Positions 20,694 to 45,647 of a stretch of 45,647 bases of DNA are shown piece by piece. The position numbers and the translations under genes were made by a program. Under the pieces are notes generated by a model that worked only from the letters and a program-made list of their open reading frames with translations, did no database searches and was not told the origin of the DNA. How positions within the stretch are numbered: the stretch's first letter is position 1; the number at the start of each line of letters is the position of its first letter. Source of the stretch: Fictibacillus sp. FJAT-27399 (GTDB lineage Bacteria > Bacillota > Bacilli > Bacillales > Fictibacillaceae); assembly GCF_001510655.1 (NCBI RefSeq), contig NZ_LMVC01000004.1, positions 1 through 45,647 on the forward strand, in the 5' to 3' direction.

Positions 20694-20723
20694 AACCATC
20701 ATACGGTGGTTTTACTTTTTTTT
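20690..20723 (+). terminator. Terminator after spo0J
   Basis: GTAAAACCA and TGGTTTTAC make a 9-bp stem with an 8-base loop followed by eight T. The spo0J stop codon is part of the stem. Confidence 0.88.
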
Positions 20724-20802
20724 GATTTGGCTCTTTTCTAAAGGTTCTTTTCTAAAAGATTGTGGCTTTTGGAACATTTTCACAAATAGCCTTCATTGCT
20801 AT

Positions 20803-20980
20803 GTTGATTGGAGTGGAAGGTGCGAGACTCCTCGAAAATGAATTTCACATTTTCCTCGTGCGATATAACGCTGCCGAAGCCTTCCTTGTCCTGCGGGGGA
20901 AGCGGGACAGGTGAGACCCACAGGCGCTGTCGCCGGTAAGGCTCAGCGCGGAAAGCGAGAATCCTGTAACGGAAATCAAC
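20803..20980 (+). repeat. Dispersed repeat, copy 1 (with 60-bp insert)
   Basis: The element runs from GTTGATTGGAGTGGAAGG to CGGAAATCAAC, so its ends are inverted repeats (GTTGATT/AATCAAC). It shares GTGCGAGACTCCT, CGCGGAAAGCGAG and ATCCTG-AACGGAAATCAAC with copies at 26641, 42775 and 45447. Bases 20833-20892 are a 60-bp insertion flanked by TCCT, identical in place to copy 4. There is no coding capacity; reading frames through it on the minus strand are chance. It fills most of the spo0J-DUF554 gap. Confidence 0.85.
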
Positions 20981-21071
20981 CACTCCTAAGGCAACAAAGG
21001 TTACGAAAACAGACTTAGATTTTAAGCTTGAAAACGCAGCTTGTACATTAGATGAAAAGGCGGGAAAGACA

Positions 21072-26589: not shown

Positions 26590-26625
26590 AAGCACGGTAA
26601 AGATTACTCTTTGCTGTGCTTTTTG
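26590..26625 (+). terminator. Terminator after rpsR
   Basis: AAGCACGG-TAAAG and CTTTG-CTGTGCTT form an imperfect stem ending in TTTTT. Confidence 0.7.
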
Positions 26626-26640
26626 GTTTCACAAAAACAA

Positions 26641-26862
26641 CAAAAGGAGCTGTCCGGAAAGTCATAAACTGACCTTCTGGAAGCTCCTTTTGTTGAATCT
26701 TCAGTGACAAGTTGATTGTAGTGGAAGGTGCGAGACTCCTGCGGGGGTGGCGTTGCTGGTAAGACCAGGTAGGCGCTTGTGCCGTGGGGCTTACCGCACG
26801 CCCCGCGGAAAGCGAGCATCCTGAAACGGAAATCAACTGCTTCCAGATAGACAGCCTGTTTC
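26641..26862 (+). repeat. Dispersed repeat, copy 2 (complete form)
   Basis: This is a full copy in three parts. First is a terminator-like hairpin (26641-26692, arms around AAAAGGAGCT and AGCTCCTTTT with CATAAACTGACCTTCTGG inside). Second is the core 26711-26837 from GTTGATTGTAGTGG to CGGAAATCAAC. Third is a tail starting TGCTTCCAGATA. The core holds GC-rich self-complementary segments (for example around CCTGCGGGGG and CCCCGCGG). Copy 3 is its near mirror at 42775. Minus-strand frames here are not genes. It separates rpsR from ytoQ. Confidence 0.88.
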
Positions 26863-26904
26863 AAAGATAACGGCTTATTGTCAGCCGCTTTTTTATTACT
26901 GCTG

Positions 26905-27348
26905 TCAGCTTTCAAAGATGTAGGAAAGTGCCTGCATCGCCTGCTGAGGGGTTTCCACCACAAGGCTGGCTTTGCTGGACAGTTCTTTTAAAGGATGGTG
27001 AAGGGCTTCAGGCCTGATCAAAATGAGCGGCTTATGGAGCGAGGCTGCTCTGGCGGCATCCATGGCAGTGTTCCATTGTTTGTATTTTTCTCCGAAGAGA
27101 GCGACCACTACATCCGCCTTGTTGATCAAGATATCGGTACGCAGGTTATTGATGCTTGATGCAGCTTCGTCTTTAAAGATGGCGTTCGGCTGTTTGCCGA
27201 GGATCTCTTCTCCGATGTTGTCGGACCGTTCATGGTCTTCCATCGGGCCAACAAAGGTTAATGGAAGGTTCATTTCTTTTGCCTGAGATTTGATCTGTTC
27301 CCGCCAATCATCGTGAATCTGACCTGCCAAGTAAACTGTTAGTTCCAT
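26905..27348 (-). CDS. ytoQ: YtoQ family protein (nucleoside 2-deoxyribosyltransferase-like fold)
   Basis: This 147-residue protein aligns over its whole length with YtoQ of Bacillus: MELTVYLAGQIHDDWR, then LTFVGPMEDHERSDNIGEEILG, then ALFGEKYKQWNTAMDA and IRPEALHHPLKELS. The fold resembles nucleoside 2-deoxyribosyltransferases and SLOG-type nucleotide-binding proteins, but no activity is proven. The start is the ATG at 27348 after GGAGGAGA. It is a single gene on the minus strand between a repeat copy and yybS; in B. subtilis ytoQ is elsewhere, so it has been relocated or retained differently. Confidence 0.88.
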   Translation of the reverse strand: MELTVYLAGQIHDDWREQIKSQAKEMNLPLTFVGPMEDHERSDNIGEEILGKQPNAIFKDEAASSINNLRTDILINKADVVVALFGEKYKQWNTAMDAARAASLHKPLILIRPEALHHPLKELSSKASLVVETPQQAMQALSYIFES

Positions 27349-41554: not shown

Positions 41555-42763
41555 ATGGGCTATTATGATGACGATTATGAATCTAGTCCAAGAAAGCAAA
41601 AAGGTAACCGAGGCGGATTTTTGCTGGCCGCTCTTGTAGGCGCTATATTAGGCGGCCTGCTCATATTATTTTCAATTCCTGCCCTTGGAGGCATGGGGCT
41701 TCTGCCTGATAACTATTCAAGCAATGAAGATAATGCCGGCGTTAATGAGCAAAACGGGATCAACAAAAACGTGAATGTGAACGTCACGACCAACGTCACT
41801 GATGCTGTCAGTAAGGCACGGGATGCAGTTGTCGAAGTGCTGAACATCCAGCAAGGTGAGTTCTGGAACCAAGGCCAGCAGGCTGCCGGTTCAGGATCAG
41901 GTGTGATCTATAAAAAAGAAGGTGGAAAAGCCTATATCGTGACAAACAATCACGTCGTAAAAGGTGCCAGCCGCCTTGAGATTACACTAAGTAACGGCAC
42001 GAAGCTGAAGGGCACACTGCGCGGTACGGACCCGCTGATGGACCTGGCGGTAGTTGAAATCGACGGCAGCAGGGTGAAAAAAGTGGCTCAATTTGGGTCA
42101 TCCAGCTCACTGAAACCGGGTGAGCCTGCCATTGCAATCGGTAACCCGCTCGGAACATTTCCAGGCTCTGTAACAGAGGGGGTTGTCTCCAGTGCTGACC
42201 GAACCATGCCAGTTGACAGCGATGAGGACGGCAATCCGGACTGGCAAGCCGAAGTTATCCAAACGGATGCGGCGATCAACCCTGGTAACAGCGGAGGCGC
42301 CCTTCTGAATATCGGCGGCCAGGTTATCGGCATTAACTCCAGTAAAATTGCACAGCAGGAAGTAGAAGGAATTGGATTCGCCATCCCTTCTGATACAGCT
42401 AAGCCGATTATCGCAGACCTTGAGCGTTACGGCGAAGTTAAACGCCCATTCCTGGGTGTTGGCCCTATCCCATTATCACAAGTCAGCAGCTATCACCGTC
42501 AAACGACGTTAAAGCTGCCGCCAAGTGTTAAATCAGGTGTCGTGGTTATGGATGTTGATCCATTATCACCAGCTGACCGGGCGGGGATCAAAGAGATGGA
42601 TGTTATTGTCGCACTCGATGACAAGAAAATCGGCTCTCCACTGGAGCTTCGCAAATATCTGTATACGAAAAAAGAAGTAGACGATAAGATGAAAATTACG
42701 TACTACAGCAAAGGCAAAAAGAAAACCACGACCATTAAACTGGGTCTTCAGAAGTCTTCATAA
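41555..42763 (+). CDS. htrC: HtrA-type serine protease HtrC (YyxA)
   Basis: This 402-residue membrane-anchored DegP/HtrA protease has a cytoplasmic N-terminus rich in charged residues, one membrane helix (about residues 22-45), the trypsin-like domain with the triad His in VTNNHVV, Asp in DLAVVEI and Ser in NPGNSGGAL, then one PDZ domain (GVVVMDVDPLSPADRAGI). It degrades misfolded exported proteins. I use the ATG at 41555 with GGTGA 8 bases upstream; a TTG at 41528 in frame is an alternative. In Bacillus the gene follows walJ and is linked to envelope stress. Confidence 0.92.
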   Translation: MGYYDDDYESSPRKQKGNRGGFLLAALVGAILGGLLILFSIPALGGMGLLPDNYSSNEDNAGVNEQNGINKNVNVNVTTNVTDAVSKARDAVVEVLNIQQGEFWNQGQQAAGSGSGVIYKKEGGKAYIVTNNHVVKGASRLEITLSNGTKLKGTLRGTDPLMDLAVVEIDGSRVKKVAQFGSSSSLKPGEPAIAIGNPLGTFPGSVTEGVVSSADRTMPVDSDEDGNPDWQAEVIQTDAAINPGNSGGALLNIGGQVIGINSSKIAQQEVEGIGFAIPSDTAKPIIADLERYGEVKRPFLGVGPIPLSQVSSYHRQTTLKLPPSVKSGVVVMDVDPLSPADRAGIKEMDVIVALDDKKIGSPLELRKYLYTKKEVDDKMKITYYSKGKKKTTTIKLGLQKSS

Positions 42764-42774
42764 GAGAAGGGGCT

Positions 42775-42995
42775 GTAAAGCAGGTTGTTTATCTGGAAGC
42801 AGTTGATTTCCGTTCCAGGATTCTCGCTTTCCGCGGGGCGTGCGCTGAACCCCTCGGCGCTTGCGCCTGCGGGTTTCATCTGTCACGCTAGTCCCGCAGG
42901 AGTCTCGAACCTTCCACTACAATCAACTTGTCACTGTAGATTAAACAAAAGAGCTTCCAGAAGGTCAGTTTATGACTTTCTGGAAGCTCCTTTTT
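42775..42995 (-). repeat. Dispersed repeat, copy 3 (complete, inverted; doubles as terminator)
   Basis: This is the reverse complement of copy 2: tail (TATCTGGAAGCAG), core 42802-42927 from GTTGATTTCCG to CTACAATCAAC, and a hairpin 42951-42995 (GAGCTTCCAGAA-GGTCAG ... CTGGAAGCTC then TTTTT) that could terminate htrC transcription. Inside the core CCTGCGGG and CCCGCAGG, and GGCGC and CGCC, are self-complementary. A plus-strand frame through it is not a gene. The rest of the gap (42996-43117) holds one DnaA box and nothing else recognised. Confidence 0.88.
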
Positions 42996-45446: not shown

Positions 45447-45647
45447 AAAAAGGGGCTGTCCAGAAAGTCGAAAATTGACCTTCAGGCAGCCCCTTTTTGG
45501 CTTGAAAAATCTTCAATGAAAAGTTAATTGAAGTGGAAGATGCGAGACTCCTCGAAAATGAACTTCACATTTTCTTCGTGCGATAAAAAGCTGCCGGAGC
45601 CTTCCTTGTCCTGCGGGACTAGCGTGCAGGTGAGACTCCCGCCGGTG
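45447..45647 (+). repeat. Dispersed repeat, copy 4 (with 60-bp insert; cut by window end)
   Basis: It begins with a terminator-like hairpin (AAAGGGGCTG ... CAGCCCCTTTTT, 45447-45498), then the core from 45523 (GTTAATTGAAGTGGAAG). It carries the same 60-bp insert as copy 1 (45553-45612, flanked by TCCT). It runs off the window at GCCGGTG. Confidence 0.82.

Follow-up and report, generated by a model that had tools for sequence, protein, structure and literature searches.

Small repeats of Fictibacillus and its relatives: one structured core within interchangeable transposon ends, with probable IS1182-type insertion into stem-loops

What are the repeats of about 220 bp that recur on contig NZ_LMVC01000004.1 of Fictibacillus sp. 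FJAT-27399, and how do they spread? The window, the whole stretch of 45,647 nucleotides that was analysed, had been read from its letters alone as holding a four-copy family of one design, with a terminator-like hairpin (lacking in copy 1), a core with inverted ends and GC-rich self-complementary blocks, and a common tail. The copies were taken as a feature of one origin region and as noncoding, similar sequences were said to be common in Bacillaceae genomes, and the repeat was considered either a MITE-like element mobilised in trans or a structured DNA/RNA element that might double as a terminator. A search of this and related genomes, a covariance model, and a comparison of loci for target-site duplications were proposed; a mobile or structured family was held to be unlikely if the four copies were the only ones and lacked compensatory changes. 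The reading preferred here, with a probability of about 0.82, is that the repeats are non-autonomous MITE-like elements in which a conserved structured core is combined with interchangeable transposon ends, and that those with IS1182-type ends insert into stem-loops.

A sequence search of the window yields four related copies at roughly the places reported before, and copy 3 was matched by the copy 2 query at E 2.8e-67, far above chance. Their parts are given below; the end-type labels A, B, C, and D are this analysis's own.

20721..20728, + strand: left target duplication of copy 1, 8 bp, TTTGATTT; 7/8 match to 21015-21022, TTAGATTT
20729..21014, + strand: copy 1, type B, long-core variant, GGCTCTTTTC...GAAAACAGAC; ends located, 8-bp duplication class
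20803..20980, + strand: copy 1 core, which includes an optional insert (20831-20890)
26641..26692, + strand: left terminal hairpin of copy 2; fold -29.9 kcal/mol, z -8.4; aligns with two IS1182 left ends
about 26646..26888, + strand: copy 2, type C, with a left end best read as IS1182-type; ends read in the sequence
26711..26837, + strand: core of copy 2, from core alignment and fold
about 42769..42994, - strand: copy 3, type C; right terminal repeat partly lost
42802..42927, - strand: core of copy 3, from core alignment
42943..42994, - strand: left terminal hairpin of copy 3; fold -29.3 kcal/mol, z -7.8
45448..45499, + strand: left terminal hairpin of copy 4; fold -27.4 kcal/mol, z -6.1
45452..45757 (in the window 45452..45647), + strand: copy 4, type A, long-core variant; right end at contig position 45757

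The existence of the family, the hairpins, the inverted core ends, and the GC-rich blocks are thereby borne out, with extents wider than had been proposed. Of the single design, the shared core stands, but the hairpin and the tail belong to particular end types. Copy 1 does not merely lack the hairpin; it has other ends, of the GGCTCTTTTC/GAAAACAGCC type. The tail TGCTTCCAGATA, thought to be common to all, is limited to copies 2 and 3; copy 1 has CCACTCCTAAGGCAACAAAGG instead, and the tail of copy 4, read past the window end, is ACAGCTTACAGACTTCTTGGACAGCCCC. Copies 2 to 4 carry ends of the GG[A/G]GCTGTCC/GGACAGC[C/T]CC type, shared by types A and C, and the right terminal repeat of copy 2 is degenerate (TTATTGTCAGCCGC). 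The gene before copy 1 is presumably parB/spo0J-like, judging by its translation. Copy 2 lies between a gene that we take to be rpsR-like and a gene at 26905, and copy 3 between presumed htrA-like (ending at 42763) and rlmH-like genes. Mechanical open reading frames of 212, 119, and 109 amino acids span copies 1, 2, and 3, respectively; as Pfam gave no match to any of them at E 0.001, they are read as spurious.

The window end falls inside copy 4, one base ahead of an N at 45648. All five Ns of this contig (45648, 102083, and 147456-147458) fall within element copies. Single Ns with repeated flanks are also present in copies of the loci L039, L040, and L041, so that what appears there as tandem copies was probably joined during assembly.

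Comparison of copies and their flanks revealed a constant core of approximately 130 nt, from GTTGATT to AATCAAC (about GTTGATTGGAGYGNAAGGTGCGAGACTCC to GCGGAAAGCGAGCATCCTGGAACGGAAATCAAC), inside ends that differ:

Type A ends: GGGGCTGTCC.GAAAGTCGAAAATTGACC ... GACTTCTTGGACAGCCCC
Type C ends: GGAGCTGTCC.GAAAGTCATAAACTGACC ... CTTATTGGACAGCTCC
Type B ends: GGCTCTTTTCTAAAAGATTGTTG ... GCAACAAAGGTTACGAAAACAGCC, that is, GGCT.../...AGCC
Type D ends, in other genera: GGCTNTGTTAAA ... TTTAACANAGCC

On 172 typed cores, B ends were present on both sides in 59 and on one side in 25, A/C ends on both sides in 14 and on one side in 7, and D ends on both sides in 3 and on one side in 7; two cores had mixed labels and 55 were without recognised ends. 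The core is thus carried between different transposon ends, and the repeat is more than one design. The A/C end pattern was counted 133 + 127 times, against 0 for a reversed-pattern control. A right end was found in all 38 left-end rows and the core in 37 of these (30 places, as eight rows duplicate a copy). Elements of types A and C measure 213-344 bases (56 elements) and are without transposase. Some cores contain optional inserts, which are common to types A and B. Long variants with extra hairpin-like modules in the core were seen in the window (20831-20890) and in L011:3685-3970, L029, L040:152-543, L238, and L249; these modules, some of which occur in both type A and type B copies, resemble optional helices. 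Two hybrids, L031:2001-2251 and L034:2001-2241, begin with the left hairpin of type C but continue into a left arm resembling that of type B, and L031 also has a type B right end.

The copies are not a feature of one origin region. With 26641-26862 as query, at least 48 rows were obtained genome-wide from the 40 scored of 219 first-look candidates, the rows including pieces of single copies and two opposite-strand matches to hairpins. With a profile, 26 core copies are detected in the window's contig (297,083 bases), 15 in the corresponding contig (289,756 bases) of G004, a genome of the same species, and 1 in 200,000 bases of the congener G006; these uneven counts indicate that the copies are genome-wide and vary between strains. 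Types A and C are estimated from end counts at about 130 in the window's genome, and an extrapolation for the two strains under comparison gives 240-390 core copies per genome. The earlier statement that such sequences are common in Bacillaceae is confirmed and extends to the order: the core was found in 176/249 genomes and 78/105 genera of an order sample (at most 13 candidates scored per genome) and in 62/299 genomes and 24/119 genera of a class sample that includes members of the order (at most 11 candidates scored per genome). Among the matches listed, carriers are Peribacillus, Cytobacillus, Fictibacillus, Mesobacillus, Metabacillus, Neobacillus, Niallia, and Rossellomorea.

The version with IS1182-type ends is far more restricted. 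Among the matches listed, it was present end-to-end in five of seven genomes of the genus (G000, which is the window's own, G004, G001, G002, and G006) and in no other genus, and alignments in other genera of the family start at position 61 or later of 227. The congener G003 gave no match, among those listed, in either the core or the end-to-end searches. In a tree of 146 cores, end labels cluster (37 changes vs 63 when shuffled). The 16 A/C tips share a clade of 38 tips (support 0.87) with copies of the same genus, 11 of them B and 11 unlabelled, and there are six changes of A versus the rest. The tree is short and weakly resolved and is taken only as consistent with a change of ends inside the genus; such a clade fits the capture of new ends there. 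From these sequences we infer that the IS1182-type ends were captured within the genus by a type B-like ancestor.

One core used as query against 50,697 phage records gave no match, and 17 plasmid records match the core. Core fragments of about 90 bases with 81.7% identity are located on plasmids of several genera, for example on the Bacillus subtilis plasmid NZ_CP028214.1 (22986-23075) and on the Paenibacillus urinalis plasmids NZ_CP118105.1 and NZ_CP118110.1. Core fragments on plasmids would permit transfer between species.

The suggestion of a structured element is supported by covariation. A MAFFT alignment of 32 cores gives a rod-like fold of 34 pairs, 17 of which show double changes, a MAFFT-only figure obtained without control. 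A covariance model made 114 matches in 100 core loci. In the model-fitted alignment, which flatters pairing counts, 93.3% of cells pair, vs 31-45% with the partner slid, and double changes occur at 29/34 pairs, vs 13-16 when slid and 12.5 when shuffled, none of 500 shuffles being as high. The copies are neither limited to four nor devoid of compensatory changes. With a nearly fixed wobble set aside, G-U outnumbers A-C by 159:52 in the model-fitted alignment, and by 23:2 in the MAFFT-only one. Pairs with more G-U than A-C number 25 vs 5 in the former (3 ties, p=0.0003) and 12 vs 2 in the latter (19 ties, p=0.013), p-values that are generous as the sequences are related. A U-G pair is kept in 90 of the 110 sequences having both letters. 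The asymmetry points to folding of one particular strand, as RNA or single-stranded DNA. The fold of one strand thus appears constrained, and the core may act as RNA or as strand-specific single-stranded DNA.

The same data bear on the view that an old MITE merely carries the core as inert filler, with the fold being kept at the DNA level by hairpin-dependent transposition or gene conversion and the ends being swapped by recombination of neighbouring elements. High copy number, near-identical subfamilies, the hybrids L031 and L034, and the intermixing of A and B cores within one clade are all as this view would have it, and it is a possibility of roughly one in three. Compensatory changes over many genera and the retained U-G pair do not suit a filler, however, and strand-symmetric drift should not yield three times as many G-U as A-C.

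Orientation relative to genes was scored using a simple ORF caller, copies being kept only when a close gene was present on both sides. Between co-directional genes, type B elements are mostly sense, with 40 sense and 8 antisense when all are pooled, orthologous copies from two strains included. In a stricter set (ORFs of at least 110 amino acids; copies sharing 60 bases of the left arm removed, so that few type A copies are left), the type B ratio is 18:3 for the named species (p=0.0015), 11:3 for the window's own genome, 7:1 for G004, and 5:3 for other genomes. A large ORF across the core was found in none of 180 kept contexts, the filter favouring intergenic copies. The type B bias, the G-U asymmetry, and the presence of the same core in B, D, and A/C end contexts could be explained if the core were a host-useful or selfish structured RNA that different transposons have captured repeatedly, with the transposon ends being mere vehicles. 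This is somewhat unlikely: in types A and C, the left hairpin would stop upstream transcripts ahead of the core, and the bias is absent there (type A, 9:10). Little bias is seen for copies with unrecognised ends (29:14 pooled; in the stricter set, 16:12 in named species and 8:3 elsewhere), and that of type B may in part come from insertion beside terminators. On the latter point, T-tracts within 20 nt of the left end of type B (18/49, vs 13/49 mirrored at the right) are equivocal. Twenty-three of 42 type A elements are located between convergent genes and none between divergent genes, the pattern expected if terminators are targeted.

At the gathering score, Rfam yielded no family match for the repeat, four tRNAs being the only matches in the window. 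At E up to 1, matches were to two microRNA families in the copy 2 region and to a CPEB3 ribozyme (E 0.82) beside the core of L171; membership was rejected. The idea that the GTT...AAC ends resemble integron attC sites was considered and dropped.

The end types differ in their insertion footprints. Type B elements are flanked by an AT-rich 8-bp target duplication: on average 7.10 of 8 bases are identical, compared with 3.79 upon shuffling (maximum of 200 shuffles, 4.37), and 40 of 52 elements have 7 or 8 identical bases. Repeats of 5, 6, 7, 9, or 10 bases gave means at or near the shuffled range, 8 being the strongest by far. No direct repeat flanks type A (1.64/8 vs 1.69/8 shuffled, n=56), the flanks of which are in most cases rich in A to the left and in T to the right. 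The target-site duplication is a property of type B and is lacking in types A and C. For type D it was seen in 3/5 elements, with one shuffle equalling the observed mean.

An 8-bp target duplication and GGCT ends are traits of the ISL3 family, and type B fits both. Nevertheless, filing type B as an ISL3-family MITE was rejected, as no ISL3 transposase with a matching terminal repeat was found. The window's genome has no match to PF01610 (the ISL3 transposase), the ends of ISL3 loci in relatives share just about the first seven bases with type B, and a paired-end scan found no ISL3 element with the type B terminal repeat. Searches for ISL3 transposases and the ends of their loci, and for IS1595 transposases by profile (PF12762), did not bring up the partner, and an ISL3-like enzyme for type B is only a guess.

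A likely source for the ends of types A and C did emerge. A search with PF13751 for IS1182-family transposases gave a match in 29/60 relatives, and 20 loci were taken with wider flanks. Ends near those of types A and C are present in three of these (L294, L296, and L300); the other 17 have different ends or none that were found. L296, from another genus of the family, and L300, from another family of the order, are A/C-like at both ends. L294, from the window's genus, has an A/C-like right end, with its left end lying off the contig and its ORF running off it. The left end GG[AG]GCTGTCC.GAAAGTC matches L296, and also L300 with one base different; the right ends, as reverse complement, match all three with a few differences. 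The left end of L296 aligns including the type C hairpin (GGAGCTGTCCAGAAAGTCAGTGAAAACTGATCTTCTGGCAGCC), and on this alignment with IS1182 elements the hairpin of copies 2-4 is best read as an IS1182-type left end. The transposase ORFs of the three loci contain PF13751 and PF01609, and two of them also PF05598. The ORF of L296 is disrupted, the intact one being that of L300. In the window's genome itself, only a PF13751 remnant of 49 profile positions is present, so the moving transposase has been lost, lies outside the assembly, or is a different one. Two other IS1182-type loci, L301 and L302, have different ends, GGGGCTGACTC, with a hairpin-like GGGGCTGACTCAAAA....

The sites at which types A and C reside were compared with orthologous sites in G004 and G006 for 13 loci of the 297-kb contig. 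By eye and RNA folding, a stem-loop, mostly terminator-like, was found at the empty site in 9 of the 10 assessable loci, each with its own local sequence. Seven of these were read against G004 (42802, 78378, 95182, 106796, 147373, 223871, and 272868) and two against G006 only (26690 and 194565), where divergence leaves the boundaries less exact. The tenth, 101943, has no clean hairpin at the empty site. Left out were three loci: 45499 and 197876, where G004 also carries the element and no site in G006 is usable, and 52012, for which an orthologous flank pair is lacking. At locus 106796, the empty allele reads AAGAAAGGAGCCTTTACACTGGGCTCCTTTTTGCAA and the filled one AAGAAAGGGGCTGTCC...GGACAGCCCCTTTTTGCAA; at locus 78378 these are AAAAAGCATGGCGCGTTTGCACCATGCTTTTTTATAAGG and ATAAAAGGGGCTGTCC...GGACAGCCCCTTTTTTATAAGG. 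The argument for replacement rests on absence of the hairpin from the filled allele. At 42802 (copy 3), 78378, and 147373 the same kind of hairpin is present both in G004 and in the more distant G006, which makes its loss in the window's lineage the simpler reading. The G004 counterpart of window positions 26590-26900 (L123) has an oppositely oriented type B element next to a terminator-like hairpin that is still intact; the locus of copy 2 is perhaps an insertion hotspot.

IS1272 of the IS1182 family is reported to target hairpins, with blunt removal of the stem-loop and without a duplication (PMC4923244). Types A and C display this mode, with the stem-loop lost at 9/10 loci and no duplication in the repeat test (n=56). 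Filled and empty alleles differ among two genomes of one species and a congener, and at the level of sequence this comparison shows mobility with two kinds of footprint. The MITE-like character suggested earlier is hence upheld by polymorphic insertions, IS1182-like ends, and the type B duplication, and mobilisation in trans by an IS1182 transposase is the proposed route for types A and C. Movement by a hairpin-binding single-strand transposase of the IS200/IS605 or RAYT type instead of IS1182 would account for a hairpin at one end and a strand-biased fold; it is very improbable given that both ends have IS1182-like terminal inverted repeats, that the footprint is of the IS1272 type, and that type B makes an 8-bp duplication. 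That the repeats are non-mobile transcription terminators only, as the left hairpins with T-runs in copies 2-4 might suggest, is scarcely credible and is contradicted by the empty sites, the type B 8-bp duplications, the IS1182-like ends, and the strain-specific copies.

For the MITE-like elements of types A and C, the following course of events is proposed. An IS1182-type transposase acting in trans would insert them into stem-loops, most of which are intrinsic terminators, and the stem-loop would be removed while the outer A- and T-tracts stay. As the left end of the element forms a strong hairpin with T residues after it, a terminator is probably re-established on insertion; with a terminator restored, insertions would be nearly neutral, allowing a high copy number. 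Termination by the left hairpin, which the sequence-only reading had also considered, is predicted and plausible with the elements residing at former stem-loops, although the left hairpin of copy 2 was not among the terminators listed by a consensus scan.

Among known systems, IS1272 and TnSha1 (IS1182 family) resemble types A and C most in that they insert into hairpins or terminators, with part of the stem-loop deleted and no duplication made (PMC4923244). IS1272 encodes its transposase, whereas the elements described here are about 0.2-0.35 kb, lack a transposase, and contain the core. The bcr1 element of the Bacillus cereus group is likewise a dispersed repeat with mobile traits. A title cited in PMC2267715 calls it specific to the group, in contrast, by description, to the order-wide core. 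Bhal-1 of Bacillus halodurans (74 bp, 36 copies, type I) is also a Bacillus stem-loop repeat family, the likeness being by the description tabulated in the portion available (PMC2267715). SPRITE and BOX of Streptococcus pneumoniae are small repeats too, SPRITE being terminator-like; the likeness is by description, and terminator replacement is unmentioned in the portion available (PMC10969869). A word search of open-licence PMC text found no description of the repeat family, nor do the available parts of PMC2864571 and PMC8632094 contain one, which leaves its absence from print unproven. The letters of the core gave nothing relevant in open-licence PMC text, just cancer papers sharing one 12-mer.

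The usual view of small non-coding mobile elements is that each derives by deletion from a single insertion sequence. One covarying core between at least two unrelated sets of ends departs from such a derivation, and the main novelty is that a conserved core is shared by two or more transposition systems whose footprints differ, one of these systems overwriting terminators. The loci described would constitute a natural large-scale case of terminators being swapped for a mobile copy, in which read-through and 3' ends are testable between strains, and the recurrence of the core invites a search for the factor that recognises it. A bolder version, to which we give somewhat less than even odds, is that the core, folded strand-specifically as RNA or single-stranded DNA, is a 'transposon-hopping' passenger that has changed carriers several times, between differing chemistries, across the Bacilli; within the genus, IS1182-type ends would overwrite terminators with a replacement hairpin, making about a hundred gene ends element-derived.

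A further candidate set of ends, GACTGTAGRCAAA, was found in seven rows, four of which have both ends. Loci with such ends are L160, L166, L169, L187, and L196, which are Peribacillus records, and L200 and L251. Cores with these ends often have a right-hand hairpin, GTAGACAAACTCG...CGAGTTTGTCTACAGTC, and this is possibly another set of ends.
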